Positions 5,298-33,317 of a stretch of DNA of 64,000 bases are shown in pieces. Under the pieces are notes generated by a model. The model was not told the origin of the DNA, ran no database searches, and was given only the letters and a program-made list of their open reading frames with translations. The stretch is taken from positions 18,372 to 82,371 of the forward strand of contig JACRCZ010000009.1 of the NCBI GenBank assembly GCA_016218765.1, read 5' to 3'. The DNA comes from Deltaproteobacteria bacterium (GTDB lineage: Bacteria > Myxococcota_A > Polyangia > DRWM01 > JAAZOP01). Positions within the stretch are counted from its first letter, which is position 1; the number at the start of each line of letters is the position of its first letter. A program made the translations under genes and the position numbers.

Positions 5298-5332
5298 CGC
5301 GCCGTGTTCCACTCGGCTGTCCGGAGCGGAGA

Positions 5333-10374: not shown

Positions 10375-11624
10375 CAGGCCGGACCCGAGGCGGACCCGTC
10401 CGGCGCCTCGTCCCCGTCCTCGGGCCGCCGCACCGCGGTTTCGATCGCCAGCGCCAGCCGATCCGGGGAGATGGGCTTGAGCAGGAAGTCGACGGCCCCC
10501 AGGCCCATCGCGTCCAGCCCCGCCGCCGGCGTCCCGTGCCCGGTCAGCATCACCGCCGGCACCCCATGCCCCCGGTCGCGCATCCGTGCGAGCACCTGCA
10601 GTCCGTCCAGCCCCGGCATCTTGAGGTCCAGCACGACGACGTCGAACTCCCCCCGCTCGGCCGCCGCCAGCCCCGCTTCACCGTCCGCCGCGCACGTCAC
10701 GTCGATGTCCCGCCGCCCCAGCACCTTCACCAGCGCCTCGCGAAACGCGTCGTCGTCATCGACCAGCAGCGCCCGCGTCCGCCGCCCCCCGCTCTCCCGC
10801 CCCCGTTCCGCCCTCCGTCTCCCCGCCCCCGCCTCCACGTTCACCGCCTCGTCCACCCCATCCTCGGCCTCGTCGTTCCCGCTCTCCCCATCCCGATTCC
10901 GTGTTCCTGGGTCCCCGTTCCGTGCTCCTGGTTCCGTGTTCCTAGTTCCTAGTTCCTTGTTCCCATTCCCATTCCCATTCCCATTCCCCGTTCCCCCCGC
11001 CCTCAGCCGCCGCAGCATCTCCCGCCCGCTCTTCCTCCACCGCTTGAAGATCCTCACCGGCCCCCCGTCGGCCGCCGGACTCACCTCCACCTCCACCCAG
11101 GTCGCCGGCAAGAGCAGGCCGTGCAGCATCCCCGCGACGCCCAGGAGGATCATCAGCTTCCCCGTGATCAAGAGCCAGGGTCCGGCCAGGAAGGCCAGGC
11201 AGGCGATGACGGCGCCCGCCGCGACCTCCGACCAGCGGATCTCCCGCCGCGTGTGCAGCGCGCGCACGTGGGTCCGCGGCACGACGTCCACGCGCGTGAC
11301 CGAGTAGGGGTCGAGCGCAGCTTCCCCCGTGGGCGGGATCACGGCCCGCACGCGGACCAGCGAGCGTGCCGTCACGAACAGGCTGACCGCCTCCTCCTCG
11401 GGCTCCTCGAGCACCGAGCGGGCGAGTCGCAGGTGGCTGTGGGCGACGTGGTGCTCGGCCAGGAACGGCTCGTCCTCCGGGAGCGCCTCGCGCGCCGCGG
11501 CCCGGAACAGGGCGACGGTTTCTTCGGCCAGACGGCTCTGGAAGCGGCGTCCGGTGAGGTCCCCGCGTTCGCGCTTGCCGTGGAGCTCGCGGATCGCGCG
11601 CCGGGCGGCCTCCACGTCAGTCAT
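10374..11624 (-). CDS. Membrane PH-like domain fused to a response-regulator receiver
   Basis: This 416-residue protein has an N-terminal part (about 1-205) with a helical segment, beta-rich sequence interrupted by two hydrophobic spans (EVAAGAVIACLAFLAGPWLL and LMILLGVAGMLHGLLL), and then VEVEVSPAADG. It looks like a membrane-embedded PH-type module of unknown role. Residues about 210-280 are low complexity (GNGNGNGNGN, then GTRNTEPGARNGDPGTRNRD) and correspond to a degenerate GGAAC repeat in the DNA. Residues 285-416 are a full receiver (VDDDD, Asp near 333 in VVVLDLKMP, LLKP). The fusion brings a receiver to the membrane beside the TauE permease. Start ATG at 11624 overlaps the upstream gene by 8 bases. 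Confidence 0.75.
   Translation of the reverse strand: MTDVEAARRAIRELHGKRERGDLTGRRFQSRLAEETVALFRAAAREALPEDEPFLAEHHVAHSHLRLARSVLEEPEEEAVSLFVTARSLVRVRAVIPPTGEAALDPYSVTRVDVVPRTHVRALHTRREIRWSEVAAGAVIACLAFLAGPWLLITGKLMILLGVAGMLHGLLLPATWVEVEVSPAADGGPVRIFKRWRKSGREMLRRLRAGGTGNGNGNGNGNKELGTRNTEPGARNGDPGTRNRDGESGNDEAEDGVDEAVNVEAGAGRRRAERGRESGGRRTRALLVDDDDAFREALVKVLGRRDIDVTCAADGEAGLAAAERGEFDVVVLDLKMPGLDGLQVLARMRDRGHGVPAVMLTGHGTPAAGLDAMGLGAVDFLLKPISPDRLALAIETAVRRPEDGDEAPDGSASGPA
10895..10996. repeat. Degenerate GTTCC/GGAAC tandem repeat inside a coding region
   Basis: Successive units such as TTCCTAGTTCCTAGTTCCTTG and CATTCC occur about every 6-7 bases. On the coding (minus) strand they translate to the GN/GTRN-rich linker of the 10374-11624 protein. 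Similar runs occur outside genes at 22194-22218 and 63830-63855. Confidence 0.7.
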
Positions 11625-11829: not shown

Positions 11830-11937
11830 CTACATCCGGCCCTTGAGCCAGATCTCGTACACCACGCCCGCCGTGCCCAGGGAGATCGCCAGCAGCAGCA
11901 GCCAGAAGCCGAGCATCGAGTTCAGGATGCGTTTCAT
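11830..11937 (-). CDS. 35-residue single-span membrane peptide in the TauE operon
   Basis: This short ORF has a clear ribosome site (GGGAGG, 7 bases before ATG) and an ATGA overlap with the TauE stop codon. It encodes MKRILNSMLGFWLLLLAISL followed by GTAGVVYEIWLKGRM: one transmembrane helix with positive charges at both ends. It is too short for the ORF track as a separate entry but appears as the tail of the 11830-12510 line. It is likely a small subunit that stabilises TauE or the adjacent membrane proteins (inference). Confidence 0.65.
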   Translation of the reverse strand: MKRILNSMLGFWLLLLAISLGTAGVVYEIWLKGRM

Positions 11938-13055
11938 GTCGAACCTCCCGCCGTGGCCGCCGCCGGCGCGCCCGGCACCACCTCGTCCTCGACCGGCGTC
12001 AACAACGGCGCCGCCCACTCGGGCACCCAGCTCCCGTGCCGCGCGCGGTAGGCGAAGACCACGAGGCACAAGATGAAGAGGCAGAGGAAGATCATCTCGC
12101 CCAGCGTCAGCATCACCGCCAGCAGCGAGAGCAGCTCCACGGACTGTCCGGTGAGCACGTAGGCCAGTCGCAGCGCAGCGCCGCAGGTGGCCAGGATCAG
12201 CGAGTAGCTGAGCACGAAGCGGATCGCCGGACCGCGGACGTAGGCCGTGGCGATGCTGCCCACCTGCGCCCCGAACAAGGCGCCCGAGAGCATGAACAGC
12301 ACGGCCATCATGTCGACGTGGCCTTCCATCGAATGCCGCAGCGCGCCGTACCCGCCGGAGAAGACGATCTCCACCAGGTCCGTGCCCACCGCGATGTGCG
12401 TCGAGGAGCCCACCAGGTAGACCAGGGCCGGGACGCGGATGAACCCGCCCCCGACTCCGAGGAAGCCGGCGAGGATGCCCGTCACCATGCCGACCAGCAC
12501 GATCACCCACATCGAGACGACGACGCGCGCCGTGCGGCAGCGGACGATCGGGGCCAGGGGGATGCGCTGGAAGAACTTCGGCAGGGAGCTGGTCTGCAGC
12601 TCGCGGTCGACCGCCTTGCCCGCCTTCGTCATCTCCTTCAGCTTCTTGTGCGCACGATGGGTCTCGATCTGCGTGTACAGGAACAGCCCGAACATGATCA
12701 CCACCGAGGCGATCAGCAGCACCACGGTCGCGATGCCGGTCTTCTTGAAGTACACCAGCAGCCGCACCCCCAGCTCCACGCCCAGCATCGTGCCGGCGAC
12801 CATGCTCAAGGCCAGGGTCCAGTCGATGTTGCCGAGCTGCCGGTGCCGCACGGTCGAGACGACGCCCTTTCCCGCGATGTGCGTCATGTCGATGCCGGAG
12901 GCCATGTACCCCGGGAACCCGAACACGATCAGCGCCGGCGTCACCATGTAGCCGCCGCCCACGCCGATGAACCCGCCCACGATGCCCACCGTGAAGCCGA
13001 TGAACACCAGGAGGAAGATCGGCGCCTCGATCCCGGCAATGGGGAAGTCGAACAT
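11934..13055 (-). CDS. TauE/SafE family anion exporter or permease (copy 1)
   Basis: This 373-residue polytopic membrane protein shows the two-half TauE/SafE repeat: GGFIGVGGGYMVTPALIVFG in the first half and GFLGVGGGFIRVPALVYLVG in the second, joined by a charged cytoplasmic loop of about 50 residues (HKKLKEMTKAGKAV). Family members move sulfite, sulfoacetate, sulfolactate or other organic anions; the substrate here is unknown. The ATG at 13055 follows a good purine-rich site and lies 13 bases after the partner-protein stop. It heads an overlapping series with two tiny membrane proteins, a membrane receiver, a histidine kinase, a receiver and a PEP-synthase-like enzyme. Confidence 0.9.
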   Translation of the reverse strand: MFDFPIAGIEAPIFLLVFIGFTVGIVGGFIGVGGGYMVTPALIVFGFPGYMASGIDMTHIAGKGVVSTVRHRQLGNIDWTLALSMVAGTMLGVELGVRLLVYFKKTGIATVVLLIASVVIMFGLFLYTQIETHRAHKKLKEMTKAGKAVDRELQTSSLPKFFQRIPLAPIVRCRTARVVVSMWVIVLVGMVTGILAGFLGVGGGFIRVPALVYLVGSSTHIAVGTDLVEIVFSGGYGALRHSMEGHVDMMAVLFMLSGALFGAQVGSIATAYVRGPAIRFVLSYSLILATCGAALRLAYVLTGQSVELLSLLAVMLTLGEMIFLCLFILCLVVFAYRARHGSWVPEWAAPLLTPVEDEVVPGAPAAATAGGST

Positions 13056-14520: not shown

Positions 14521-15894
14521 CTACTCGTCCGAAGGGCGGTCGGGCTTGCGCAGCTTGCGGTACAGCGTCCGGCGGTTGATTCCCAGGATCCGTGCGACCT
14601 GGGACTGGTTGCCCTTGCACTCGCGCATGAGCTGCTGGATGTAGCGCGACTCCATCTCCTCCAGCGAAACGGCGCCGGCCGGCTGCCGGCCCTTCTCCGT
14701 CAAGACCTCTTCGGGGAGGTCGCGCAGCTGGATCAGCCCCGCCTTGCGCAGGATCACCGCCCGCTCCACCACGTTCTCGAGCTGCCGCACGTTGCCGGGC
14801 CACGAGTAGCCGACCAGGGCATCGAGCGCGTCCGGCCGCACGCCATCCACGTGGTACTCGGCGTTGTGCTTGCGGATGAAGTGGTAGACCAGCGGTGCGA
14901 TGTCCTCGCGCCGGTCGCGCAGGTCCGGGACGACGAGCGGAATCACCGAAAGGCGGTAGAAGAGGTCCTCGCGGAACTTCCCGCCGGCGACCAGGGCGCG
15001 CAGGTCCTTGTTCGTCGCGGAGATCAATCGCACGTTGAGCACGCGCTCGTCGACCTCGCCCACGCGCCGGAACCGGCGTTCCTGCAGGAAGCGCAGGAGC
15101 TTGCCCTGCACGGCCGGCGACAGATCCCCCACCTCGTCCAGAAACAACGTCCCGCCCTCGGCCAGCTCGATCAGCCCCTGCTTGTCCGCGATGGCGCCCG
15201 TGAACGAGCCCCTCCGGTGCCCGAACAGCTCGCTCTCGATCAACGTCTCCGGGATGGCGTTGACGTCGACCGGCACGAACGGCCGTTCGTGGCGCGGGCT
15301 CAGGTCGTGGATCACCCGCGCCAGAAGCTCCGTGCCCGTGCCCGACGCACCGGACACCAGCACGGTGCCGGTGGAGGCGGCGACCTGCCGGGCCATCTCG
15401 AGCAGCGAACCCATCTGCTCGCTGCGGAACACGATCGGGAAGAACGGCTCGGCGCCCCCCGCCGACGCACCGCGCGCCTCCTGCCACTCGCGCACGCGCG
15501 CCGCCGCGGCCGCGGCGATCTCCACCAGATCGTCGATGTTGAACGGCTTGGCGATGTAGTGGTACGCGCCCTCGCGCATCGCCTGGACCGCGAACTCGAT
15601 CGTGCCGAACGCCGTCATCAGGATCACCGGCTGGTGCAGGCTGCGCGCCATGGCCCGCCGCAGGACGTCCATCCCGTCGGCCCCGGGCATGCGCACGTCC
15701 GAGAGCACCAGGTCGAACGCGCCCTCCTCCAGGCGCGCCAGCGCCTCCGTCCCGTCGCGCGCCTCGATCACGTCGTAGCCCTCGTCGCGCAAGACCCGCG
15801 TCAGGAGATCGCGCATCTCCCCGTCGTCCTCGGCCAAGAGCACCCGCACCGGAGACGCCGCGCGTTCCCGGACCTGGGGCGTGGCATCCGTCAT
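14521..15894 (-). CDS. NtrC-type sigma-54 response regulator with altered Walker A motif
   Basis: This 457-residue protein has a receiver (Asp66 in LVLSDVRMP, Lys in YIAKPF), an AAA+ sigma-54 interaction domain and a Fis-type helix-turn-helix (GNQSQVARILGINRRTLYRK). The sigma-54 contact loop is GSFTGA at 229-234 and Walker B is LFLDEVGD near 250-256. Walker A reads GASGTGTE: the invariant lysine that binds ATP phosphates is Thr188. The gene sequence is clean, so this is not an obvious reading error, but ATP turnover should be impaired. The ATG at 15894 overlaps the kinase stop as ATGA, so the kinase encoded at 15891-17690 is the cognate sensor. Likely targets are sigma-54 promoters near the TauE loci (inference). 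Confidence 0.88.
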   Translation of the reverse strand: MTDATPQVRERAASPVRVLLAEDDGEMRDLLTRVLRDEGYDVIEARDGTEALARLEEGAFDLVLSDVRMPGADGMDVLRRAMARSLHQPVILMTAFGTIEFAVQAMREGAYHYIAKPFNIDDLVEIAAAAAARVREWQEARGASAGGAEPFFPIVFRSEQMGSLLEMARQVAASTGTVLVSGASGTGTELLARVIHDLSPRHERPFVPVDVNAIPETLIESELFGHRRGSFTGAIADKQGLIELAEGGTLFLDEVGDLSPAVQGKLLRFLQERRFRRVGEVDERVLNVRLISATNKDLRALVAGGKFREDLFYRLSVIPLVVPDLRDRREDIAPLVYHFIRKHNAEYHVDGVRPDALDALVGYSWPGNVRQLENVVERAVILRKAGLIQLRDLPEEVLTEKGRQPAGAVSLEEMESRYIQQLMRECKGNQSQVARILGINRRTLYRKLRKPDRPSDE

Positions 15895-17690
15895 CGCTCC
15901 ACCTCCGACTCCTCGGGACCCTCCTGCGCGCGGCGGAGGACGATCGTGAACGTCGTCCCCTCGCCTACCCGGCTGTGCACGTCGATCCGCCCGCCGTGCT
16001 GCCGCACGATCCGCCGCACGATCGCCAGTCCCAGCCCCGTCCCTTCCCCCTGGGGTTTCGTCGTGAAGAACGGCTCGAAGATCCGCGGCAGGTCCTGCTC
16101 GGGGATCCCCGGCCCCGTGTCCATGACGCGCAGGTACGCCCCCGGCTGCCCTCCCGCACGCCGTACCTGCTCCCGGCCCGCCTCCGGTGCCGTCGTGTCC
16201 TCCGGGCCCGCCTCCACGGTCAGCTTCCCCCCGTCGACCATGGCCTGGTAGGCGTTGACCACCAGGTTCAGGAGCGCGTGCTCCAGGAGGTGCGGATCCC
16301 CCTCCACCGGCGGCGTGCCCGACGCGATCCGCGTCTCGACCGCGACCTTCCGCATCATCCCCGCCGCCATCTCCAGCGCCTGCGCGACGACGCGGCCCAG
16401 GTCGACCCTCCGGAGCTGCGGCTCGGTCGGCCGCGCGAAGTCCAGCACGCGGCGGATCATCGCCGCCAGCCGCTGCGACTGCCGCACGATCTTCTCCAGG
16501 ACCTCCCGCCGCGGGTCCCCGGCGTCCAGCTTGCGCATCAGGACCTGCGCGTTGCCCGAGATCACGTTGAGCGGCGTGCCGAACTCGTGCGCGATGCCCG
16601 TCGCGAGCTGGCCCAGGAGCGCGCTCTTCTCCGCCTGCAGGAGCCCGGCCTCCGACACCGCGAGCCGCGACTCCAGCTCGTCGAACGCGCGCACCAGATC
16701 GGCGTACTCCACCGTCCCCAGCTCCCCGGCCGGAACCGCCAGCGGCTTCCGTTCGCCCGCGCCCTCGTCGCGCAGCGCGTCCCGGATCCGCAGCAGCGGC
16801 CGCAGCAGCCGGCGACTCGTCCACGCCCCCAGCCCCGCCACCGCCACGAGCGCGAAGAGAATCGACCAGGTGACGACGAGGTAGCGGTCCCGGAGCCCGA
16901 TCACCGCCTCGCCGATGTCCGCGCTGACGATCGCCGCGAGCTGCCCGCCCGGCACCGGCTGGACGAACCCCAGCCGCTCCTTGTCCGTCACCCGGCTCCG
17001 GTAGCGGATCGGACCGCTGCCGCCGTCGCGGAACAGCCGCACCGGCGGGTTGGTCGCGATGTCCTCGGCCCGGCCCGCCAGCCCGAGGTCCGAGTAGAAC
17101 AGCGGCCGGCCCTGCCGATCGACCACGTAGACCCGGCGGTCGACCGCGGCGCCCAGGCTCGCCGTCAGCTCCTCGTGCAGCCCCTCGGGCCGCAGCACGC
17201 CCACGACCGCCCCGCCACCGGCACCGCTCACCCGCGCGGCGATCAGCACCGTGGGCGGCAGCCCCGCCACCCAGCCGCCGACCGGCGTCACCAGCGTCGA
17301 CCTTTCCCACCCCGGACAGGCCAGGATTCCGCCGTAGCCGCCGTCACGGCCGACGCGAGCGGCGTCCACTTGCGAGGCGATCAGCACGCCGTCCGCGCCG
17401 ACGAGCTCCCAGCGCACGTCGCTCGTCGCCGCCGGCAGCTCCGCCCCGCCCTTGCTCGCCGCCAGCGTCGCCTCCGCCCGCGTCGCACGCAGGAACCGAT
17501 CGAGGTAGTGCGCAGCGAGGATCGCGATCTGGCGGTTGGTCGTCTGGATCTCCCCCTCCACCCGCTCCACGTCGTCGCGGTACCCCAGGAAGATGAGCAC
17601 GCCGAGCGGCAGGAACGGCACGACGGCGACAAGTCCGAGCGAGCGGAGGAGAATACCGCGAATCGATGCCCGGGGAGAGCGGTCGCTCAT
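15891..17690 (-). CDS. NtrB/ZraS-type membrane sensor histidine kinase
   Basis: The 599-residue protein has membrane helices at about 15-36 and 268-290 flanking an extracytoplasmic sensor of about 230 residues (Cache-like, VYVVDRQGRPLFYSDLG). A HAMP-like linker is followed by His368 in GIAHEFGTPLNV, N box LNLVVNAYQAM, DTGPGIP, the F box IFEPFFTTKPQ and GTGLGLAIV. The stop overlaps the downstream NtrC-type regulator, forming a standard two-component operon. It is divergent from the second partner/TauE operon across a 272-base intergenic region, consistent with sensing linked to that transporter. Start ATG at 17690 has only a weak purine site. Confidence 0.9.
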   Translation of the reverse strand: MSDRSPRASIRGILLRSLGLVAVVPFLPLGVLIFLGYRDDVERVEGEIQTTNRQIAILAAHYLDRFLRATRAEATLAASKGGAELPAATSDVRWELVGADGVLIASQVDAARVGRDGGYGGILACPGWERSTLVTPVGGWVAGLPPTVLIAARVSGAGGGAVVGVLRPEGLHEELTASLGAAVDRRVYVVDRQGRPLFYSDLGLAGRAEDIATNPPVRLFRDGGSGPIRYRSRVTDKERLGFVQPVPGGQLAAIVSADIGEAVIGLRDRYLVVTWSILFALVAVAGLGAWTSRRLLRPLLRIRDALRDEGAGERKPLAVPAGELGTVEYADLVRAFDELESRLAVSEAGLLQAEKSALLGQLATGIAHEFGTPLNVISGNAQVLMRKLDAGDPRREVLEKIVRQSQRLAAMIRRVLDFARPTEPQLRRVDLGRVVAQALEMAAGMMRKVAVETRIASGTPPVEGDPHLLEHALLNLVVNAYQAMVDGGKLTVEAGPEDTTAPEAGREQVRRAGGQPGAYLRVMDTGPGIPEQDLPRIFEPFFTTKPQGEGTGLGLAIVRRIVRQHGGRIDVHSRVGEGTTFTIVLRRAQEGPEESEVER

Positions 17691-17962
17691 GTCCGATCCG
17701 TTCGATCGTCCCCCCCGCCGCGCCTGCGCCCCTCGGGTCCCGACCCCGCAGCGGCGATTCCTTGTGGCGACACTGGATCACGGCGGCCTTCCGGTCAAGC
17801 CCGACCGGCGCCTCGGGTTCCGGGGAACGGTCCGGCCGTGATTCGTGCTTCAGCGGCCCGCGGGTTGTTGCTTGAATCCACGGAGAGTCCATGCTATGCG
17901 GTGAAACTCAACAATCGGGGGGACGGCCCGGGGGGGCTGCGTTCGCGCGGGGAAGAGGGCTC

Positions 17963-18310
17963 ATGAATCAGGCGATGAATCGTCGGAAGGGGCGTACGCT
18001 GGGTACGATGGCGAGAGTGCTCGCCCGATGGAGGCATCTGGTCTTTCTCGGCTGTGTCCTCGTCGCCTCGACGGCCCAGGCCGCCGGCGGCGGGAAGCCC
18101 GCGACCAAGCTCGTGCAGGTCATCGACACGCGGCGGATGGACGACGGGATCACCCGCTGGGTCGCCGACCTCTACAACGACAACCTCTGGCTCTACGGTC
18201 TGGTGGTCGTGGGCGTCATGGCCGTGATCGGCCTCGCGCTCGGCCTCGTCTTCGATCGTCTCGTCGGCCTGCTCGGGATCAACCTGGGCAAGCTCGACCA
18301 CCACGAGTAG
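17963..18310 (+). CDS. Small secreted/anchored partner of TauE (copy 2)
   Basis: The 115-residue protein carries a signal-like helix (HLVFLGCVLVASTAQA, possible cleavage after AQA), a short polar segment (VIDTRRMDDGITRWVADLYN), one transmembrane helix (LWLYGLVVVGVMAVIGLALG) and the tail GINLGKLDHHE. The core DLYNDNLWLYG is nearly identical to QLYNDNLWLYA in the copy at 26223. The ATG at 17963 follows GGAAGAGGG; the ORF track start at 17891 adds noncoding sequence. The TauE gene begins 11 bases downstream. A fixed partner beside a permease suggests a subunit, but no biochemical role is known to me. Confidence 0.8.
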   Translation: MNQAMNRRKGRTLGTMARVLARWRHLVFLGCVLVASTAQAAGGGKPATKLVQVIDTRRMDDGITRWVADLYNDNLWLYGLVVVGVMAVIGLALGLVFDRLVGLLGINLGKLDHHE

Positions 18311-18321
18311 GAGGGATCGCC

Positions 18322-19362
18322 ATGGATGCGTTCAACGTCCTCCTGCCCGTGGCGGGGATCGAGTTCAACGTCCTCTTGCTGCTGCTCATCGGCTTCACGG
18401 TGGGCGTGTGCGGCGGGTTCTTCGGCATCGGCGGTGCGTGGATCGTGACGCCGGCGCTGAACATCTTCGGCTTCCCGATGCCGTATGCCATCGGCACCGA
18501 CCTGGCGCACATGGGCGGCAAGTCCATCGTCTCCACCATCCGCCACGGCAAGTTCGGCAACGTCGACGTCCGGCTCGCCGTGTCGATGATTATCGGCACG
18601 ACGGTGGGCATGGAAGGCGGCGCGCAGCTCGTGCTCAAGCTCGAGTCGATGGGATTGGCGGAGTCGCTGATCCGCAAGCTGTACATCGGCTTCCTGGCGC
18701 TCATCGGCAGCTACGTGCTGTACGACTACCTCTCGCACGTCAGCCGGCAGAAGAAGGCGGCGAAGTCGGGCGACAAGGCCGCCGTCGTCGGGCCCACGGT
18801 CGCGCAGAAGCTCCAGCGCCTGCGCATCCCCCCGATGATCCACTTCAAGGCCTCGAACATCACCTGCTCGCTCTGGCTGCCCGTCTTCATCGGCCTCCTG
18901 ACCGGCGTCGTCGCCGCCGTGCTCGGCGTCGGCGGCGGCTTCATCCGCATGCCCGCGCTGATCTACCTCGTCGGCTGCCCCACCGCGGTGGCGGTGGGGA
19001 CGGACCTGTTCGAGGTGATGATTACCGGGGCGTACGGCTCGTTCACCTACGGCATCAAGGGCCGCGTCGATCTCATCGCCGCCGCCTGGATGCTGCTCGG
19101 CGCGGCCGTCGGCGCCCAGATGGGCACGATCGCCATCAAGTACGTGCGCGGCTACTCCATCCGGCTGCTCTTCGCCGTCACCATCTTCGTGGCCTGCGCC
19201 TCGGTGCTGCTCAAGCAGCTCGAATTCCAGATCGCCTCGTCGGTGTTGATCCTCGCCGCCGGCATCGGCATCTCCGCGATCATCCTGCTCTGGCTGATCC
19301 GCGGCATCGTCCAGGAGCGCGCCTCGCGCCGCGCCGCCACGGGCGGCGGCGCGATCGGGTAG
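18322..19362 (+). CDS. TauE/SafE family permease (copy 2)
   Basis: The 346-residue permease has the duplicated TauE/SafE signature: GGFFGIGGAWIVTPALNIFG near the N terminus and GVGGGFIRMPALIYLVGCPT in the second half, with a cytoplasmic loop of about 45 residues between. It is closer to the copy at 26523 (same AYAIGTDLAH-type motif and the GCPTAVAVGTDLF segment) than to copy 1. Start ATG has GGAGGG at -8. It is preceded by its partner gene and followed after 10 bases by a small lipoprotein gene, all one operon; the kinase-like gene on the opposite strand converges on them. Transport substrate not determinable. Confidence 0.9.
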   Translation: MDAFNVLLPVAGIEFNVLLLLLIGFTVGVCGGFFGIGGAWIVTPALNIFGFPMPYAIGTDLAHMGGKSIVSTIRHGKFGNVDVRLAVSMIIGTTVGMEGGAQLVLKLESMGLAESLIRKLYIGFLALIGSYVLYDYLSHVSRQKKAAKSGDKAAVVGPTVAQKLQRLRIPPMIHFKASNITCSLWLPVFIGLLTGVVAAVLGVGGGFIRMPALIYLVGCPTAVAVGTDLFEVMITGAYGSFTYGIKGRVDLIAAAWMLLGAAVGAQMGTIAIKYVRGYSIRLLFAVTIFVACASVLLKQLEFQIASSVLILAAGIGISAIILLWLIRGIVQERASRRAATGGGAIG

Positions 19363-19672: not shown

Positions 19673-22159
19673 CTAGAACCGCTCCATCTCGTCCGCCAGA
19701 AACGCTTTCGCGAAGAACACCGGGCTGTCGTCCGTCTCCATGAGCATGTCGAGCTGGCGCGCGCACAACGTGAGCCGGCCGAGCTGCACGAGGCGCCCGA
19801 GAACCACCTCGCGGTCGTACTTCTCCAGCCGCGCGAAGAGCATGTCCCCGCGGCAGGAGACCTTGAAGTCCAGGCTGCCCAGCACCTGCGAGAGGAACTC
19901 GCAGCGGCGGCCGCGCCGCACCTCGCCCGCCCCGCCGCCCTGGAACCGGAAGTGGATGTAGTTCTTGTTGATGCTGGCGCCGCACCAGGTGTCGACGGTG
20001 TTGTAGTGGTAGCCCGCCTTGGTGCTGAAGTTCATGTAGCGGTCGGAGATGGTCGCGAAGCTGAAACGGCCCACGCCGCGCTCGGCCGCCGGCGGCGTCA
20101 CCATCGCCTCGCCCAGGACGGTGAGGAACCCGCCGCCGGAGACGGCGCGCGGCTTGTCCCACCGGATGCGCGGGTCCTGGAAGCCCTTGAGGAAGGCCGT
20201 CAGCGGCACCGACCGGATCTCATCGATGTACACTTTCCCGGTCCCCGCCACGCCGTCCGCGAACCCGCCGCCCAGGTCGAAGACGTGGATCACGAACGGC
20301 AGCTTGCCTTCCAGCTCGGCCGACGCGAGGCCCGCGTGCGCCGCCTTGTCGGCGAGGTGGAACATCGAGTCGAACAGCTTCTCGTGGACGAAGCGCGTGA
20401 TGTCGTGGAGCGACCGGCACCCGGCCGGGGTGAACTCGCGCGAGGCGGGGTCGACGAGGTTGAGCGGCGTGATCAGCTCGGCCATGCACCGCAGCTTGAG
20501 CAGCGCCGGCGTCACCACCGCGGGACCACCCGTCGCGCAGGTGCGCAGCACCGCCTCATCGCGCCCGTCCCACACCATCCTCCGCGTCGCGTCGACGGTC
20601 ACCTGCCGTCCGTCACGCAGCGCCGCGGTGGCGCCGGGGAGGCCCACGATCGCCGGGATGCCGAACTCGCGCGCCAGGATCGACATGTGCCCCGTCGGCG
20701 AGCCCGCGTCCGTCACGATCGCCGCGCAGCGGGTCATGACCTGCGAGAAGCGCGGCGACGAGTGCGGGGCGATGAGCACCGCGCCCTGCGGCACGTGGTC
20801 CAGGTCCTGCTCCGATTGCACCAGGACCGCCGGCCCCGCCCCGCAGCCGTGGCACGCCGTTCGCCCCCCCGTGAGCAGCGGCTCCCCCGCCGGCGGCAAC
20901 GACGGCTCCCGGCTCGCCTCCGCCACCCGCGGCGCCGTCAGCATCGGCCGGCATTGCAGCACGAACAGCTCGTCCCGCTCCGAAATCGCCCACTCGATGT
21001 CCTGCGGCGACCCGAAATGCTCCTCCGCCCGCCGCGCCACCCGCACCAGCTCCCCAAGTTCCCCTGTCGCCAGGTGCGCCGAGCGGACCTCCGCCTCCTT
21101 CCCCGGCCGGATCGTCAGGTCCTCGCCGCTCACCGAGCCTCCCGCCAGGCCGTCCGACAGGCCCGACACCGTGCTCACCAGCACTTCGTCCGCCTTCTCG
21201 TCGTCGAACCCGCGCGAGAAGAGGATGCCGCTGCACCGCGGGGCGACCATGCGCAGGCAGCCCACGGCCATCGCCGTGTCCGCCGACGAGAGCCCGTGCC
21301 CCAGCCGGTACGCCACGGCGCTCAGCCCGAACACGCTCGACAGCACCGAGCGGTATGCGTCCAGGAGCCAGCCGCGGCCCACGTTCAACTCCGTGTAGTA
21401 CTGCCCCGCGTGCGAGGTCCCGATGCGGTCCTCCTTGACCGTCGAGGAACGCATCGCGACGAGGATCTCGCCGCCCCCGGCCAGCTTGTCGAAGGCCTCG
21501 TGGATCGCGCGGTCGATGTCCGAGGGCACGGGGGCGTCGAGCACCGCGGACTGCATCTTGCGGCAGGCCTCCGCCGCGACCTTCGTCCCGTACGTCTCGA
21601 GCATCTCCTCCAGCCGCTCGATCCCCTTGCGCAGGTCGTTCTCCGCGATGAAGCGCTGGTACGCGGTCGTGGTGATGACGAAGCCGTCCGGGACGTTGAA
21701 CCCCAGCGCGCGCCGTACCTCCCCCAGGTTCGCGATCTTCGTCCCCGCGACCTGCGCGTCCGCCTGCGTGAGGCTTCCCACGTCGATCACGATCGGCCCG
21801 GGCGGCACGTCCAGCCGCCCCGCGCATTCGTCCTCGAACCGCACGTTGAGCGCGCGCAGCACGTCGTACAGGCCGCCGTACTTCCCGCCCGTCATGCGGT
21901 TCAGGTTCTTGACCATGACGAACACGTCCATGATCGCCCGGCGGACCTGTCGCACGACGGCGTTGAAGGAGAACGGCACGCGTCCCGACAGCCGGTCCTC
22001 GACGTCCGCGATCGTCTGCAGCGTCGCGTCGTTCGCCGCCAGGATCTCCCGGAACTGCTCGTACAGCACCCGCAGCTCCGCCGCCGTGCGCTGCGCCTGT
22101 TCTTCCTTCTTGCGCGTCCGCGCCGCCTTCCCGAACTTCGCCTTGAGCCGCTCGAACAT
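19673..22159 (-). CDS. PEP-synthase-like phosphotransferase with novel C-terminal domain (copy 2)
   Basis: The 828-residue paralogue of the 5731 and 27613 proteins has an N-terminal helical region to about 130, an ATP-binding domain (ANLGEVRRALGFNVPDGF, AMRSSTVKEDR, SPQDIEWAIS), and a phosphohistidine domain with His near 490 in SPTGHMSILAREFGIPAIVG. The C-terminal domain has CRSLHDITRFVHEK, FDLGGGFADG, GYHYNTVDTWCG and NKNYIHFRFQGGG. No PEP-binding barrel is present. The ATG at 22159 with GGAGG upstream is chosen; the ORF-track frame runs on to 23707 only because it reads through the ATPase gene out of frame. It converges with the partner/TauE/lipoprotein operon (7-base gap). Predicted reaction: ATP-dependent phosphorylation of an unknown substrate through phosphohistidine. 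Confidence 0.8.
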   Translation of the reverse strand: MFERLKAKFGKAARTRKKEEQAQRTAAELRVLYEQFREILAANDATLQTIADVEDRLSGRVPFSFNAVVRQVRRAIMDVFVMVKNLNRMTGGKYGGLYDVLRALNVRFEDECAGRLDVPPGPIVIDVGSLTQADAQVAGTKIANLGEVRRALGFNVPDGFVITTTAYQRFIAENDLRKGIERLEEMLETYGTKVAAEACRKMQSAVLDAPVPSDIDRAIHEAFDKLAGGGEILVAMRSSTVKEDRIGTSHAGQYYTELNVGRGWLLDAYRSVLSSVFGLSAVAYRLGHGLSSADTAMAVGCLRMVAPRCSGILFSRGFDDEKADEVLVSTVSGLSDGLAGGSVSGEDLTIRPGKEAEVRSAHLATGELGELVRVARRAEEHFGSPQDIEWAISERDELFVLQCRPMLTAPRVAEASREPSLPPAGEPLLTGGRTACHGCGAGPAVLVQSEQDLDHVPQGAVLIAPHSSPRFSQVMTRCAAIVTDAGSPTGHMSILAREFGIPAIVGLPGATAALRDGRQVTVDATRRMVWDGRDEAVLRTCATGGPAVVTPALLKLRCMAELITPLNLVDPASREFTPAGCRSLHDITRFVHEKLFDSMFHLADKAAHAGLASAELEGKLPFVIHVFDLGGGFADGVAGTGKVYIDEIRSVPLTAFLKGFQDPRIRWDKPRAVSGGGFLTVLGEAMVTPPAAERGVGRFSFATISDRYMNFSTKAGYHYNTVDTWCGASINKNYIHFRFQGGGAGEVRRGRRCEFLSQVLGSLDFKVSCRGDMLFARLEKYDREVVLGRLVQLGRLTLCARQLDMLMETDDSPVFFAKAFLADEMERF

Positions 22160-22239: not shown

Positions 22240-23412
22240 TCACGTCCGCCCCGGCTCCAGCGTCGCGAACGCCGCCAGCGCGTCGGTGACCTCGATGCCG
22301 TGGTCGGACCACGGACGCTTGAGGTCGCGCACGATCCGGCTGGCCTTCGCGGGCCGCAGGCGCTGGGCGAAATAGCGCAGCCCGCGCCCCACCTCCGGAT
22401 CGCCCACCTTCGCCTCGACCAGCTCGACAATCTTCCCCTCGCGCTCCAGCAGGAAATCCGCCTCGTGTCCTTCCTTGTCCCGCACGTACCACAGGCGGCA
22501 GCGGTAGCCGTCGCGGTCTTCCCAGAAGTGCAGGCGGCGCAGGAGGCTCGCGGCCACGAAGTTCTCGAACCGCGCCCCGTCGTCGCCGACGACGTCCCCG
22601 CTGTCGAAGAAGTACACCTTGGGCGGCTTCTGGATCGCGCGCGGCAGGCTCCGCGTCCACGGATAGACCGCGAAGCAGAGGTACATCCGCTCGAGACTCT
22701 CCAGCCACTTGCGCAGCGTCACCGGGCTCACCTGGAGGTCCCCGGCGATGTGCGACAGCACCACCGGGCTGCCCACGCGCTGCCGCAACGCGTCCACGAA
22801 CAACTCGAGTTTCGCCATCTCGCGAATCGCTTCCATGTCGCGCAGGTCGTCGCGCAGGACGCGTGCGAAACGCTCGCGCCGCCAGCGCCGCGCCTCCCGT
22901 TCGTCGTTTCCCAGGAACGGCTCGGGAAACGGCCCAACCGTCAGGAACCGCCGCAGCGCCTCCTCCGGGGCTATGCCCCGCGGGATCTCGTCCAGGCCGA
23001 ACGGATGCAGCCTCCAGTAGTGGTACCGACCCTGCAAGGAGTCTCCCCCCCGCCGGTACACGTCCAGCCGCGCGCTGCCGGTGACGACGAAGCGGTGCTT
23101 GCCGGCGGTGGTGTCCCACAGGCCCTTGATCCACCGCTTCCAGCCGGGATACTTGTGCAGCTCGTCCAGGGCCAGCAGGCGATCCGCGTCCCGCCACCGG
23201 CGGCCCAGCAGCGCGCGCCGGTCGTCCTCCGCGTCCCAGCTGAAGTACGCCCCCCCGGGGAAGATGGCCGGCCCGCCCTCCAGCGGCTCCGTCGGCCGCG
23301 GGTCTCCCACCAGGTACCGGGCCAGCGTCGTCTTGCCCGACTGCCGCGGTCCGCCGATGAACACCATCTTCCGCCGCAGGTCGCGCACCACGTCCCCGGC
23401 AATGTAGCGCAT
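22240..23412 (-). CDS. DUF4143-type AAA ATPase (first)
   Basis: This 390-residue protein has Walker A GGPRQSGKTTLARYL near residue 20, a Walker B-like LLALDELHKYPGW, sensor VTGSARLD, and a C-terminal DUF4143 region with the nuclease-like EGHEADFLLEREGKIVELVE-AK pattern. Such proteins are abundant, mobile ATPases whose cellular role is mostly unproven. The start ATG lies 6 bases after a good -10, with no ribosome site, so the mRNA is probably leaderless. It belongs to a different subfamily from the second ATPase at 23895 and is divergent from it. Confidence 0.85.
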   Translation of the reverse strand: MRYIAGDVVRDLRRKMVFIGGPRQSGKTTLARYLVGDPRPTEPLEGGPAIFPGGAYFSWDAEDDRRALLGRRWRDADRLLALDELHKYPGWKRWIKGLWDTTAGKHRFVVTGSARLDVYRRGGDSLQGRYHYWRLHPFGLDEIPRGIAPEEALRRFLTVGPFPEPFLGNDEREARRWRRERFARVLRDDLRDMEAIREMAKLELFVDALRQRVGSPVVLSHIAGDLQVSPVTLRKWLESLERMYLCFAVYPWTRSLPRAIQKPPKVYFFDSGDVVGDDGARFENFVAASLLRRLHFWEDRDGYRCRLWYVRDKEGHEADFLLEREGKIVELVEAKVGDPEVGRGLRYFAQRLRPAKASRIVRDLKRPWSDHGIEVTDALAAFATLEPGRT

Positions 23413-23894: not shown

Positions 23895-25226
23895 ATGTGG
23901 AGGAGAATCGAGAACGATCTGCTCGCCTGGAAGGACGACCCCCGACGAAGGGTCCTGCTGGTCAGGGGAGCCCGACAGGTCGGTAAGACGTTCTCCATCC
24001 GCCAGCTCGGCAAAACCTTCCCCCACTTCCTCGAGGTGAACTTCGAGGAGAACAAGGACGTGGCGGCCTTCTTCCAGGGGTCCCTCGATCCGGCGCGTCT
24101 GGTCGAGAAGCTCTCGGCCTATTTCGCTGTTCCGGTCATCCCCCGCCAGACGCTCCTCTTCCTCGACGAGATCCAGGCATGCCCGAACGCTCTGGCCTCC
24201 CTTCGATTTTTCCACGAGAAGATGCCGGGGCTGCATGTCGTGGGCGCGGGCTCCCTCCTGGAGCTGGCCATGGAGCAGATCCCCTCCCTCGGCGTGGGCC
24301 GACTCGGCTCCCTCTTCATGCACCCCATGTGCTTCAGCGAGTTCCTCGCCGCCACGGGCGGCGAAGGCTTGGCTCGCGTCGTCGAGCCGGCGGACCCGGA
24401 GCATCCGGTGGACGCCCCGTTCCACGCGCGGCTCCTGGACGTGCTGAGGACCTACCTTCTGGTGGGAGGCATGCCGGCCGCCGTAGCGACCTACGCCGAG
24501 CAGCGGTACCTCCCCACTTGCTTCAAGGTCCTCGACGATCTCGTCCTGACCCTGGAGGACGACTTCGCGAAGTACAGGAAACGGTCTCCCGTCGCGCGGC
24601 TCGTCGAGGTGTTTCGCTCGATCGCCGGCCAGACCGGAGGCAAGTTCAAGTTTTCCCGCGTCGGCTCGGGAGCCCCTTCCGGCCCGCTCAAGGACGCCTT
24701 GATGCTCCTCGTGCGCGCGGGGCTGGCGCACCGGGTCGTCCACACCGACGCGCGCGGCATCCCGCTCGGCGCCCAGACGGACGACAGGAAGTTCAAGGTC
24801 CTCCTGTTCGATCTCGGCGTCCACCAGCGGATGCTCGGCCTCGACGTCCCTGCCTTCCTTGCCGCGAGCGACATCGATCTGGTCAACAAGGGAAGCCTGG
24901 CGGAGCTCTTCGTCGGGCTGGAGCTTGTCGCCAACGGCCCGTCGCACCGGAGGCCCGGCCTGTACTACTGGCACCGGGAAGCGCGGGCCAGCAACGCCGA
25001 GGTGGACTACGTCGTCCAGCGCGGCTCCGCGATCGTCCCCGTGGAGGTCAAGGCGGGCACCCGAGGCGGCATGCAGAGCATGCGCATCTTCATGGATGAG
25101 CGCCGGCTGGGGTCCGGCGTCCGCGTCTCGATGGAGAACTTCTCCAGGCTCGAACGGATCGAGGTCCTCCCCCTCTACGCGGCCGGAAGGCTCGCGCAAT
25201 CGCCGCTGCGGGCGCCGGAGACCTGA
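23895..25226 (+). CDS. DUF4143-type AAA ATPase (second)
   Basis: The 443-residue protein has Walker A RGARQVGKTFSIRQLG near residue 25, a Walker B-like LLFLDEIQACP, sensor VVGAGSLLELAM, and the C-terminal DUF4143 domain with FEL-type helices and the pattern AEVDYVVQRG...VPVEVKAG. This is the classic DUF4143 ATPase subfamily, common on genomic islands. The ATG at 23895 has no clear ribosome site. The gene follows an AT-richer noncoding stretch and is divergent from another DUF4143 gene. Substrate and role unknown. Confidence 0.87.
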   Translation: MWRRIENDLLAWKDDPRRRVLLVRGARQVGKTFSIRQLGKTFPHFLEVNFEENKDVAAFFQGSLDPARLVEKLSAYFAVPVIPRQTLLFLDEIQACPNALASLRFFHEKMPGLHVVGAGSLLELAMEQIPSLGVGRLGSLFMHPMCFSEFLAATGGEGLARVVEPADPEHPVDAPFHARLLDVLRTYLLVGGMPAAVATYAEQRYLPTCFKVLDDLVLTLEDDFAKYRKRSPVARLVEVFRSIAGQTGGKFKFSRVGSGAPSGPLKDALMLLVRAGLAHRVVHTDARGIPLGAQTDDRKFKVLLFDLGVHQRMLGLDVPAFLAASDIDLVNKGSLAELFVGLELVANGPSHRRPGLYYWHREARASNAEVDYVVQRGSAIVPVEVKAGTRGGMQSMRIFMDERRLGSGVRVSMENFSRLERIEVLPLYAAGRLAQSPLRAPET

Positions 25227-25994: not shown

Positions 25995-26142
25995 CCGGGC
26001 GGCAGAGGTCGCACTCGCGGACGGCGAGTTCGACACCGGATGTACGGCCGCCGCCCGTTCCGGCTTCGCACGATTGCGCCCCCCACGCCCCCCACCCCCC
26101 ACCCCGCCCCCCTCCCCACGCCGGCTTCCGCCCCCTCCACCG

Positions 26143-26171
26143 TTGACAAGATCCACAGTCCAGAGGATCAT
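26143..26171 (+). promoter_or_regulatory. Sigma-70-type promoter of the third TauE operon
   Basis: TTGACA (26143-26148), a 17-base spacer and GATCAT (26166-26171) lie 52 bases before the ATG at 26223. The -35 is perfect and the -10 matches 4 of 6. Confidence 0.55.
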
Positions 26172-26222
26172 CGCCCCTGCTGCGGTCTAGTGGGGCGGTG
26201 CGCCGCACGAAGGAGCGAGATC

Positions 26223-26516
26223 ATGAAGCGATCCGTCCAGGGTTTGGTCGTCGCCATCCTCGCGCTGCTTCCCTCGCTCGCCGCCGCCGGCGGCGAAGGC
26301 CTCGAGGTCCCGGAGGCGATGGGTAAAAAAGTCCCACTCGAGGACCTCTCCGGCATCAACCTCTGGGCCGGGCAGCTCTACAACGACAACCTCTGGCTCT
26401 ACGCCGTCGTCTGTACCGTGGTCATGGGCGTCGTCGGCGTCACCATCGCCTTCGGCACCGACCTCATCCTCAAAGCCATCGGCATGGAAGTCCACAAGAT
26501 CGAGCACAAGGAGTAG
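26223..26516 (+). CDS. Small secreted/anchored partner of TauE (copy 3)
   Basis: The 97-residue protein has a signal peptide (MKRSVQGLVVAILALLPSLA, then AAGGEG), a short polar segment (VPLEDLSGINLWAGQLYN), one transmembrane helix (LWLYAVVCTVVMGVVGVTIA) and the tail GMEVHKIEHKE. The sequence from QLYNDNLWLY onward matches copy 2 closely. The ATG follows AAGGAG. TauE starts 6 bases after its stop with its ribosome site inside the end of this gene, so translation is coupled. The conserved position and tail argue for a dedicated subunit. Confidence 0.82.
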   Translation: MKRSVQGLVVAILALLPSLAAAGGEGLEVPEAMGKKVPLEDLSGINLWAGQLYNDNLWLYAVVCTVVMGVVGVTIAFGTDLILKAIGMEVHKIEHKE

Positions 26517-26522
26517 ACGGCC

Positions 26523-27572
26523 ATGTTCGACATCTACCTTCCCATCGCCGGCGTCGAGTTCAACCTCCTCATCCTCCTCTGCATCGGGCTCACCGTCGGC
26601 GTCCTCGGCGGCTTCTTCGGCGTCGGCGGCGCCTGGGTCGTTACCCCAGCCCTCAACATCTTCGGCTTCCCCATGGCCTACGCCATCGGCACCGACCTCG
26701 CCCACATCTTCGGCAAGTCCATCGTGGCCACCAAGAAACACGGCAAGATGGGCAACGTCGACGTCAAGATGGGCCTCATCTCCATCGTCGGCTCCGTCAT
26801 CGGCGTCGAGATCGGCGCGCAGATCGTCATGTGGCTCACCGCCAAGGGTCTCGCCGGACCCGTCGTCCGCTACTCCTACATGGCCCTCCTCTTCGGCCTC
26901 GGCCTCTTCATGCTCTGGGACTACTTCACCAAGGACAAGCGCGCCGCCGCGAAAGCCGCCAAGGACGCCGCGGCGGGCATCGTCCCCGGCCAGAAGCCGA
27001 AGAAGTCCGGCTGGAACCTCCCCCCCATGATCCACTTCCCCGTCTCCGGCGTCACGATCTCCCTCTGGACCGTCGTTCTCGTCTTCCTCCTCACCGGCCT
27101 CCTCTCCGGCTTCCTCGGCGTCGGCGGCGGCTTCATCCGCATGCCCGCCCTGATCTACCTCATCGGCTGCCCGACCGCCGTCGCCGTCGGCACCGACCTC
27201 TTCAGCGTCGTCTTCTCCGGCGCCTACGGCTGCTTCACCTACGCCGTGAAGGGCCGCGTCGAGATCATCGCCGCCCTCCTCATGCTGATCGGCGCCTCGA
27301 TCGGCGCGCAGATCGGCGTCACCGCGGTCAAGTACATCCACGGCTACGGCATCCGCCTGCTCTTCGCCATCATGGTCATCCTCGCCGGCTCGTCCGTCGC
27401 CCTGAAGCAATTCCACGCCACGACCGCCGCCGCGTACCTCGTCATGATCTCCGCCGTCTCCATGTGCGTTATCATCGTCATCCAGATGTCCCGCGGCTTC
27501 TCGCGGGAGAAGGCGGCCAAGGCCGTCGAGGCCGCCAAGAACGCCGCGGCGGCCAAGAGCCCCGCGGGCTGA
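26523..27572 (+). CDS. TauE/SafE family permease (copy 3)
   Basis: The 349-residue permease has the TauE/SafE duplicated motif (GGFFGVGGAWVVTPALNIFG; GVGGGFIRMPALIYLIGCPT) and a cytoplasmic loop rich in Lys and Ala (KDKRAAAKAAKDAAAG). The C-terminal tail is alanine/lysine-rich (KAVEAAKNAAAAKSPAG). It shares AYAIGTDLAH and GCPTAVAVGTDLF with copy 2. The operon order is partner, TauE, PEP-synthase-like kinase, CBS protein, with gaps of 6, 40 and about 50 bases. The substrate is probably an inorganic or organic sulfur or carboxyl anion by family; unproven here. Confidence 0.9.
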   Translation: MFDIYLPIAGVEFNLLILLCIGLTVGVLGGFFGVGGAWVVTPALNIFGFPMAYAIGTDLAHIFGKSIVATKKHGKMGNVDVKMGLISIVGSVIGVEIGAQIVMWLTAKGLAGPVVRYSYMALLFGLGLFMLWDYFTKDKRAAAKAAKDAAAGIVPGQKPKKSGWNLPPMIHFPVSGVTISLWTVVLVFLLTGLLSGFLGVGGGFIRMPALIYLIGCPTAVAVGTDLFSVVFSGAYGCFTYAVKGRVEIIAALLMLIGASIGAQIGVTAVKYIHGYGIRLLFAIMVILAGSSVALKQFHATTAAAYLVMISAVSMCVIIVIQMSRGFSREKAAKAVEAAKNAAAAKSPAG

Positions 27573-27612: not shown

Positions 27613-30225
27613 ATGGGCCTGTTCCAGAGGATGTTCGGCAAGGGGAGCGACGAACACCTCGCCGCGCTCCGCCGCATTCGCGAGAAATTCTCCCTCTTCC
27701 GCTCGCTGCTCGATCACCAGAACCGCGTCCTCAAGGACATCGGCCAGCTCGAGGTCCGCTCGCGCCGCAACCTGCCCATCGAGGCCGCCGACGTCGTCGC
27801 CGTCGAGGAAGCCGTCGCGGGCCTCGTCGAGCAGATGGTCGAGCTGGGCGGCGACTCGTACGCCGTCCTGCGCGAGCGTCTTTCCGAGGTGCGTCGCGAG
27901 ATCCGGGCCGACGCCGCGGGGACCCGGCGCGTCGCGCCCGACGAGTTCGTGATCCCCTACGATCGCCTGGGACGCGAGCGCGCCCCGTCCGTCGGCAACA
28001 AGAACGCGAACCTCGGCGAGCTGCGCTCGCGCCTCGGCCTTCCCGTCCCCGACGGCTTCGCCGTCAGCGCCTGGGGCTTCCATCGCTTCCTCGAAGCCAA
28101 CGCGCTGCGCGAGAAGATCGACGCCCTGCTGCGCGAGGCCGGGCCGGCGGGACCGGGCGAGCGCGACGCCGCGGCCGGCCGGGTCCGCTCGCTGGTCGTC
28201 GCCAGCCCCGTGCCCGACGACCTGCGCGCCGCGATCACGGACGCCTTCGAGAAGCTGTCCGCGCGCTGCCGCGACCACCGCTTCGCCGTGCGCTCCAGTG
28301 CCATCGATGAGGACGGCGCGCTCTCCTTCGCCGGCCAGTTCGTCACCCTGCTCAACGTCGGCCGCGACAACCTCCTCGAGTCGTACAAGCACGTCCTGGC
28401 CAGCACGTTCACCCCCGCCTCGGTGCACTTCGCGCGCGGCCGCGGGGCCGAGCAGTTCGAGTCCCCCATGGGCGTGGGCTGCCTCGCGCTCGTCGATGCC
28501 GCCGCCAGCGGCGTCCTCTACACCCGCGACCCGCTCGACCCCGACGCCCCGCGCATGCTCGTCAACGCCATCCGCGGCCTGGGCGCGTACCTCGTCGACG
28601 GCGTCCTCACCCCCGACGTCTTCCACGTCTCCCGCGACGACCGCTCCGTCGCCCTCGTCCGCGTCGCCAAGAAGACCGTCCAGCTCGTACCTCAGCCCGG
28701 CGGCGGCGTCGCCGAGGCCCCCGTGCCCCAGGCCGATCAGGAACGCCCCGCCGCCTCCGACGACCAGCTCCGCATGCTCGCGGGCTTCGCCCTGCGCGTC
28801 GAGGAGCACTACGGCGTCCCACAGGACATCGAGTGGGCGATCGACCACGACGGCCGCCTCTTCCTCCTTCAGGCCCGCCCCCTGCGCCTCGTTCGTCGCC
28901 GGACCCCGGCGCCGGCGCCCCCGGAGCTCCACGGCCGCGCGCTCGCCGGCGGCGGCACCTGCATCTGTCCGGGCGCCGGCGCCGGTCCGGTCTTCCACGT
29001 CCGCTCCCCGGGCGACATCCATCTCGTGCCCGACGGCGCCGTCGTCGTCGCGGAGAACCCCTCCCCCAGGCTCATCGCCATCATGCACCGCGCCGCCGCC
29101 CTCGTGACCCGCGTCGGCGGCGCCGCGAGCCACATGGCTACCCTCGCCCGCGAGGCCGGCATCCCCACCGTGGCCGGGATCGAACGGGCCGGCGAGCTGC
29201 CGGACGGAATGGAGATCACCGTCGACGCCACCGCGGGGACCCTCTACGAGGGGCCGCAGCGCGAGCTGGTCGACGCCCGCCGCCGTGAGACCGAGCCGCA
29301 GGCGGACGACGCCGGCGCCGCCCCCAGTCCCCTGCGCCGCACCGTCGAACGCATCGCGCACCTCAACCTCATCAGCCCGGGCGATCCCGAGTTCCGCGCC
29401 GAGCGTTGCCGCACCCTCCACGACATCACCCGCTTCATCCACCAGCGCGCCATGGAGGAGATGTTCGGCACCGCCCGCGCCACCGCGCACAAGGACCGCA
29501 TCGGCCTCCGCCTGAAGACGGACATCCCGCTCGCGGTCGACGTCATCCGCCTCGACGAGGAACACGCCGGCGCGGCGCGGCGCGGCAAGGTCGCCGAGGC
29601 CGAGCTGGACTCGGTCCCGATGCAGGCCCTGTGGAGCGGCATCAAGGAGGAAGGCTGGCCGTCGCGCCCCGTCCCCGCGGACCTGAAGGGCTTCCTGGCC
29701 GTGATGGGCACGAACATCACCGAGGGCAACCAGCCGCAGTTCTCGGAGAGCAGCTACGCCTTCGTCAGTCGCGAGTACATGCTCTTCAACATCCGCATGG
29801 GCTACCACTACGCCACGATCGAGGCGCTGCTCACGGCCGAGCCGAGCGCGAACTACGTCCGCATGCAGTTCAAGGAGGGCGGGGCGCCGCTCGAGCGCCG
29901 CGTGCGCCGCATCCGCCTCATCTGCGACCTCCTGCGCCGGATGGGTTTCGAGACCTCCAGCCAGGCCGACTTCATGGACGCGACGCTTGCCTACCAGGAC
30001 GCCGACACGCTTGCCCACCGCCTCCGCCTGCTCGGCCGCGTGAACATCATGACCAAACAGCTCGACATGGCCCTCTCCAACGACTCCGTGACACAATGGT
30101 ACACGGACGATTTCAGCCGGCGGCTGGGTCTCGAGTCCGCGCCCGCCGGCCGGACGGGCGCGCGGCCCGGCGGCGACGTGCCGATCGCGAAGCTGCCGCC
30201 GGAGAGGGAAGGGGGCGCGTCGTGA
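27613..30225 (+). CDS. PEP-synthase-like phosphotransferase with novel C-terminal domain (copy 3)
   Basis: This 870-residue protein has an N-terminal helical region (about 1-115), an ATP-binding domain (ANLGELRSRLGLPVPDGF, AVRSSAIDEDGALSFAGQF, VPQDIEWAID) and a swivelling domain with His near 506 in AASHMATLAREAGIPTVAG. The C-terminal domain has CRTLHDITRFIHQR, VSREYMLFNIRMGYHY and VRMQFKEGG. It is the most divergent of the three at the C terminus: the NKNYI motif reads SANYV. The start ATG follows GGGAG. It lies directly downstream of TauE and upstream of a CBS-domain gene. An adenylate-sensing CBS partner would suit an enzyme that consumes ATP and releases AMP (inference). Confidence 0.82.
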   Translation: MGLFQRMFGKGSDEHLAALRRIREKFSLFRSLLDHQNRVLKDIGQLEVRSRRNLPIEAADVVAVEEAVAGLVEQMVELGGDSYAVLRERLSEVRREIRADAAGTRRVAPDEFVIPYDRLGRERAPSVGNKNANLGELRSRLGLPVPDGFAVSAWGFHRFLEANALREKIDALLREAGPAGPGERDAAAGRVRSLVVASPVPDDLRAAITDAFEKLSARCRDHRFAVRSSAIDEDGALSFAGQFVTLLNVGRDNLLESYKHVLASTFTPASVHFARGRGAEQFESPMGVGCLALVDAAASGVLYTRDPLDPDAPRMLVNAIRGLGAYLVDGVLTPDVFHVSRDDRSVALVRVAKKTVQLVPQPGGGVAEAPVPQADQERPAASDDQLRMLAGFALRVEEHYGVPQDIEWAIDHDGRLFLLQARPLRLVRRRTPAPAPPELHGRALAGGGTCICPGAGAGPVFHVRSPGDIHLVPDGAVVVAENPSPRLIAIMHRAAALVTRVGGAASHMATLAREAGIPTVAGIERAGELPDGMEITVDATAGTLYEGPQRELVDARRRETEPQADDAGAAPSPLRRTVERIAHLNLISPGDPEFRAERCRTLHDITRFIHQRAMEEMFGTARATAHKDRIGLRLKTDIPLAVDVIRLDEEHAGAARRGKVAEAELDSVPMQALWSGIKEEGWPSRPVPADLKGFLAVMGTNITEGNQPQFSESSYAFVSREYMLFNIRMGYHYATIEALLTAEPSANYVRMQFKEGGAPLERRVRRIRLICDLLRRMGFETSSQADFMDATLAYQDADTLAHRLRLLGRVNIMTKQLDMALSNDSVTQWYTDDFSRRLGLESAPAGRTGARPGGDVPIAKLPPEREGGAS

Positions 30226-33254: not shown

Positions 33255-33317
33255 GCCCGCCACTCCCGTGCCGGCGAGAATGCCGCGCCGCCGTGCAACC
33301 TGTCAACGCCGGCCGAA

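Follow-up and report, generated by a model that had tools for sequence, protein, structure and literature searches.

Genomic organization of the locus

The window, i.e., the whole stretch of 64,000 nucleotides that was analyzed, carries three dikinase-like paralogues, P0001, P0002, and P0003, surrounded by genes encoding permeases and two-component proteins.

5731-8310, minus strand: P0001, paralogue, 859 aa
8315-8710, minus strand: stand-alone receiver, immediately upstream of P0001 and contained in ORF 8315-9061
8707-10374, minus strand: histidine kinase with a dCache sensor
10374-11624, minus strand: protein with a C-terminal receiver (residues 286-394)
11934-13055, minus strand: TSUP/TauE permease of the P0001 module (PF01925, 1.2e-40)
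14521-15912, minus strand: NtrC-type response regulator
15891-17690, minus strand: histidine kinase
17891-18310, plus strand: small membrane protein recurring beside TSUP
18112-19362, plus strand: TSUP/TauE permease beside P0002 (8.7e-43)
19673-22159, minus strand: P0002, 828 aa, the gene to which the finding refers, stop-free translation
26040-26516, plus strand: small membrane protein, family of 17891-18310
26523-27572, plus strand: TSUP/TauE permease directly upstream of P0003 (2.8e-44)
27613-30225, plus strand: P0003, paralogue, 870 aa
30276-30800, plus strand: CBS-domain protein, assigned through its homologue L101_23 (PF00571), downstream of P0003
31773-33263, minus strand: permease of the DASS (sodium:sulfate symporter) type, assigned through its homologue L101_11 (PF00939)
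33293-35164, plus strand: histidine kinase, assigned through its homologue encoded at 8707-10374

Downstream of P0001, two adjacent membrane H+-pyrophosphatase genes are located (137-2740 and 3019-5127, both minus strand), the second matching PF03030 and the first being its homologue. This pair was considered as a hint of PPi production and dropped, being present in only 2 of the 51 loci compared below. Between P0001 and the neighboring pyrophosphatase gene, the opposite strand carries a receiver-domain ORF (5126-5728, plus strand). The start region of P0002 is flanked by 22240-23412 (minus strand) and 23895-25226 (plus strand), whose translations read like AAA-type ATPases often annotated with DUF4143.

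Domain architecture of the three paralogues

P0001, P0002, and P0003 share an architecture composed of a helical N-terminus, a PEP-synthase-type ATP-grasp domain, a phosphohistidine domain, and a C-terminal domain of about 280 residues, and their Pfam matches are confined to PPDK_N and PEP-utilizers. In P0002, these parts are distributed as follows.

About residues 1-120: helical N-terminus
20945-21751, minus strand, about residues 137-405: ATP-grasp domain (PF01326)
20582-20791, minus strand, residues 457-526: phosphohistidine domain (PF00391) with H491
19676-20515, minus strand, residues 549-828: new C-terminal domain

P0002 and P0003 are 38-40% identical to P0001 over the entire protein length. 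An earlier note, made from the sequence of the window, had described an intact RSS motif of the ATP-grasp domain and an intact phosphohistidine motif in all three proteins, and both descriptions were confirmed: RSS followed by ED is found in each, and the His motifs read TGHMASLARE, TGHMSILARE, and SHMATLARE. The C-terminal motifs listed in the same note were recovered in part. The CR..LHD-type motif is present in the three paralogues (CRTLHDVARYIH, CRSLHDITRFVH, and CRTLHDITRFIH), with GYHF or GYHY further on, but FxxGG does not hold literally in P0001, which reads FHGG at this position, the true invariant being F739..G742.

The three paralogues sit in three deep clades, with P0001 and P0002 grouping with relatives labelled as other phyla; they are ancient paralogues and not recent duplicates. 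No fourth copy was found in the source genome, whose assembly is about 80% complete. The other PPDK_N proteins of this genome (L004-L007) are also not ordinary PEP synthases and, by eye, have other architectures.

The C-terminal domain matches no known family and is not a barrel

According to the earlier note, the C-terminal part replaces the PEP/pyruvate barrel of PEP synthase and pyruvate, phosphate dikinase (PPDK), and the sequence and structure analyses bear this out. PF02896, the family of this barrel, was absent from the three paralogues, and its matches in the source genome were limited to two other proteins. A scan of 75 family members gave no convincing Pfam family for the C-terminal domain. 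When aligned by hhalign with the PPDK of the same genome, the profile of the C-terminal domain reached a probability of 0.5%, compared to 99.6% for the full-length profile. The AlphaFold2 model of the C-terminal domain (pLDDT 84.2, pTM 0.72) is a mixed alpha/beta structure without a barrel pattern. The full-length model of P0002 (pLDDT 86.6) has PEP synthase, rifampin phosphotransferase (Rph), and PPDK as its structural matches. Thus, the outcomes that would have refuted the note, a TIM barrel or a damaged His motif, were not observed.

Foldseek searches of the C-terminal model against the PDB and viral models returned no match at E<=0.001. The best weak matches had values of 0.028 (PDB) and 0.0066 (viral models) with low TM-scores, and because of this weakness, we leave the fold unnamed; arginine-kinase-like matches among them were judged to be noise. 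Sequence searches of the PDB gave nothing usable, the one match at E=0.003 being to UPF0166 over 76 residues. Chance is excluded as the source of the domain, since it recurs in 204 confirmed relatives from other genomes (see below). Carried by a known phosphohistidine engine, the C-terminal domain is a real third domain that is conserved and has no description in the libraries searched.

Residue conservation and family distribution

Conservation was determined in 82 sequences gathered by HMM or protein search and not by motif, i.e., an unbiased set. The ATP-site residues, which in P0002 correspond to K141, R237, E389, Q402, and R404, are retained in 79-82 of these sequences, and the position of H491 is His in 80. 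Considering the 101 complete ORFs of the family, all eight ATP residues are present in 88 and the His in 95. Within the C-terminal domain, F576, H585, D586, H592, G659, H718, G742, R752, D772, G794, and D804 are invariant (82/82), and R589 (81/82) and N733 (80/82) nearly so. The Cys to which the earlier note had drawn attention is less conserved: its position is Cys in 71 of the 82 sequences and V, M, or I elsewhere. A nearly invariant Cys (99%) had been obtained from a set fetched with a Cys-containing pattern, and this value was rejected. Consequently, the Cys is dispensable, and it is His, Asp, and Arg that mark the site.

The 204 relatives, all confirmed in a single scan of species genomes, are distributed over several phyla. 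In the order around the genome of locus L048, the family is present in 67 of the 81 sampled genomes with one to nine copies each. Among the genomes around the source genome, 8 of 96 carry it, the source included, so its distribution there is patchy. A scan of viral contigs found no relative of the family, and PADLOC gave no match.

A few family members lack the ATP-grasp domain and/or the His. These comprise forms of 557-583 aa (L107, L108, L063, L081), two members without the His domain (L111 and L110), and three with Arg in place of the catalytic His (L096, L130, and L133), and several of these degenerate copies share their locus with an intact one. Among the Arg forms, L130 and L133 retain H585, D586, H592, and H718, and the other degenerate copies retain part of this set. 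The persistence of the C-terminal domain in such copies suggests that it does more than accept phosphate from the His of the same protein. In two genomes, at L130 (4963-12395) and L133 (6329-14277), a four-gene unit is conserved, composed of the Arg-for-His copy, a kinase, a stand-alone receiver, and an intact copy, which looks like an active/dead pair.

Gene neighborhood of the family

Neighboring genes were counted within 5 kb in 51 loci with enough flank, which come from related genomes and do not represent independent events; the names of the neighbors have Pfam support for representatives. A TSUP/TauE permease is near the family gene in 41 of these loci, a receiver in 40 (median gap 18 bp), and a histidine kinase in 29. 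Other neighbors were a small membrane protein (20 loci), a universal stress protein (10), DASS (6), and CBS (4). In 49 loci, one or more of TSUP, DASS, receiver, and kinase are present. Nevertheless, 11 loci have no receiver within 5 kb and 22 have no kinase, so the two-component link is not universal. No recurrent catabolic enzyme was seen among the commonest neighbor clusters. The same module pattern appears in loci labelled Acidobacteria, Bacteroidetes, Chloroflexi, Poribacteria, and Deltaproteobacteria, and three of the four TauE genes of the source genome adjoin the three paralogues. Such conservation of the module suggests a control role rather than one in pyruvate metabolism.

In 36 of 123 family genes, a receiver ends at most 250 bp upstream; since only 2-46 residues follow the receiver, these proteins have no output domain. 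The small membrane protein beside TSUP (17891-18310 and 26040-26516 in the window; also in L048 and L066) has one helix and no confident Pfam family, and it is possibly a permease subunit.

Relationship to the Desulfovibrio nitrate cluster

Korte et al. (2014; PMC4001038) reported that insertions in Dde_0598/DVU0251 (TauE), DVU0249 (PtxB), DVU0247 (receiver), and DVU0246/Dde_0604 (PPDK-like) lead to nitrate resistance, and suggested a leaky thiosulfate transporter. The assays were pooled, with some disagreement between them; the DVU0246 insertion mutant was also resistant when grown alone (PMC4001038). The cluster (DVU0251-DVU0245/Dde_0597-0605) comprises TauE, PtxB, a kinase, a single receiver, the dikinase-like gene, and a phosphatase. 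One subfamily of the dikinase-like proteins is syntenic with this cluster. The same order is found in our locus L141, where TSUP is followed by a PtxB-like lipoprotein, a kinase, a 120-aa receiver, a family member, and a dual-specificity-phosphatase-like protein, the PtxB and phosphatase names being our own reading of the sequences. This family member carries the new C-terminal domain, which is not described in PMC4001038. DVU0246, given as 2235 bp and thus shorter than most family members (PMC4001038), would belong to the family by its synteny with L141 and its published annotation. The nitrate cluster differs from the window in its PtxB and phosphatase genes, neither of which was found adjacent to the paralogues here. 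If DVU0246 is the same protein, the resemblance of its mutant to the permease mutant favors a control role over one in downstream metabolism, although the phenotypes of the nitrate mutants could instead reflect a toxic metabolic product. This cluster decides whether sulfate reducers resist nitrate, which is a problem for the control of oil-field souring, and its mechanism was left open in PMC4001038; with the domain assignment, the cluster can be tested residue by residue.

Proposed function and alternative explanations

We favor, over a plain metabolic dikinase and with about even confidence, a PEP-synthase-derived phosphohistidine protein whose new domain makes it a two-component-linked effector of an anion-permease module. 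The ATP-grasp domain would use ATP to form phospho-H491 on the swivelling His domain with release of AMP and Pi, as the intact active-site residues suggest. The phosphoryl group would then be carried to the C-terminal domain, where the invariant His, Asp, and Arg could make up a site for an acceptor, a ligand, or a metal; the phospho-acceptor may be a ligand, a metabolite, a receiver, or the permease. Judging from the neighbors and the published mutants, the protein would act as a cytoplasmic effector of the TSUP (sometimes DASS) permease module and be required for permease function, and this effector would be driven or read out by the histidine kinase and the stand-alone receiver encoded next to it. 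Precedents would be VadK, a regulatory dikinase remnant, and Rph or HpeHI, with their swapped third domains.

A possible, if somewhat unlikely, explanation is that of a small-molecule dikinase, in which TSUP imports an organic acid or a sulfur compound that the C-terminal domain then binds and phosphorylates, with conversion of ATP to AMP and Pi, several paralogues corresponding to several imported substrates. The intact ATP-grasp and His, the invariant His/Asp/Arg set in the third domain, and the frequent proximity of anion permeases agree with it, as does the pairing of a different third domain with a different acceptor in Rph and HpeHI (PMC4844700, PMC12167813). However, in nitrate the dikinase-like mutants behave like permease mutants, a result difficult to reconcile with an enzyme acting downstream; family members that lack the His or ATP-grasp persist with their C-terminal residues wholly or partly intact; and the commonest neighbor clusters offer no recurrent catabolic enzyme.

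We consider it unlikely that the protein is a phosphotransferase acting on proteins, whose phospho-His491 gives its phosphoryl group to the aspartate of the adjacent stand-alone receiver, or takes it back, as an ATP-grasp-type histidine kinase or phosphorelay unit. The stand-alone receivers directly upstream would fit this arrangement, and so would the D. vulgaris cluster, where the kinase is a pseudogene and the receiver and dikinase-like mutants still have phenotypes (PMC4001038); VadK, a PPDK-derived protein that autophosphorylates on His and is itself a regulatory histidine kinase, provides a precedent (PMC13400623). Against it, some loci have no receiver, and the strongly conserved C-terminal residues are left without a stated job. 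Finally, it is highly improbable that the proteins are ordinary PEP synthases or PPDKs whose barrel has diverged: PEP synthase models are the best NCBIfam matches, but every score falls far short of its curated cut-off (e.g., 317 vs. 598), and the PF02896, hhalign, and AlphaFold2 results given above point away from a barrel.

We tentatively suggest, as a rather unlikely reading, that the family could be an unrecognized widespread signalling device in which a dikinase-type phosphohistidine protein with a fold-orphan domain couples two-component receivers to anion permeases. Phosphohistidine made by ATP-grasp, and not only by a HATPase kinase, would then supply or gate the output, with the dead tandem partners as regulatory subunits.

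Comparison with known dikinases

PEP synthase (pyruvate, water dikinase; EC 2.7.9.2; NF005057, TIGR01418) is the best sequence match to the first two domains and shares the order of ATP-grasp, phosphohistidine, and third domain, including PF01326 with its K, R, E, Q, and R nucleotide residues and PF00391 with the catalytic His. In contrast to the C-terminal PF02896 barrel of PEP synthase, the family bears an unrelated domain, together with an extra helical N-terminus. Automatic PEP synthase or PEP/pyruvate-binding labels are therefore misleading, the pyruvate domain being missing. The NCBIfam scores reach at most 317.3 vs. a cut-off of 598 for NF005057 and 303.5 vs. 739.75 for TIGR01418, and those for PPDK (TIGR01828) are 43.8-45.9 vs. 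843.45. No biochemistry of any family member was found in the literature.

Rph and HpeHI, like the family, combine an ATP-grasp and a swivelling His with a different third domain, but neither matches the new domain in sequence or fold. Scores for Rph (NF041857) were at most 215 vs. a cut-off of 999. Rph has its rifampin domain in a central position and its His domain at the C-terminal end (PMC4844700), and HpeHI consists of two chains (PMC12167813); in the paralogues, the His domain is central, and the domains follow each other as in PEP synthase and not as in Rph. The interpretation given in the earlier note is partly supported: the barrel is replaced, but the analogy with Rph, by which the swapped third domain should mean a new acceptor, is weakened by the dispensable Cys, the domain order, the degenerate copies that retain the C-terminal domain without a usable His, and the neighbors and mutants that point to permease control.

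VadK (Rv1127c) is a PPDK-derived regulatory histidine kinase that autophosphorylates on His and does not serve to make PEP (PMC13400623). It represents a truncated PPDK of about 50 kDa, reduced to the ATP-binding and His parts, whereas the three paralogues do not end after the His domain, and the family adds a third domain of about 280 residues.
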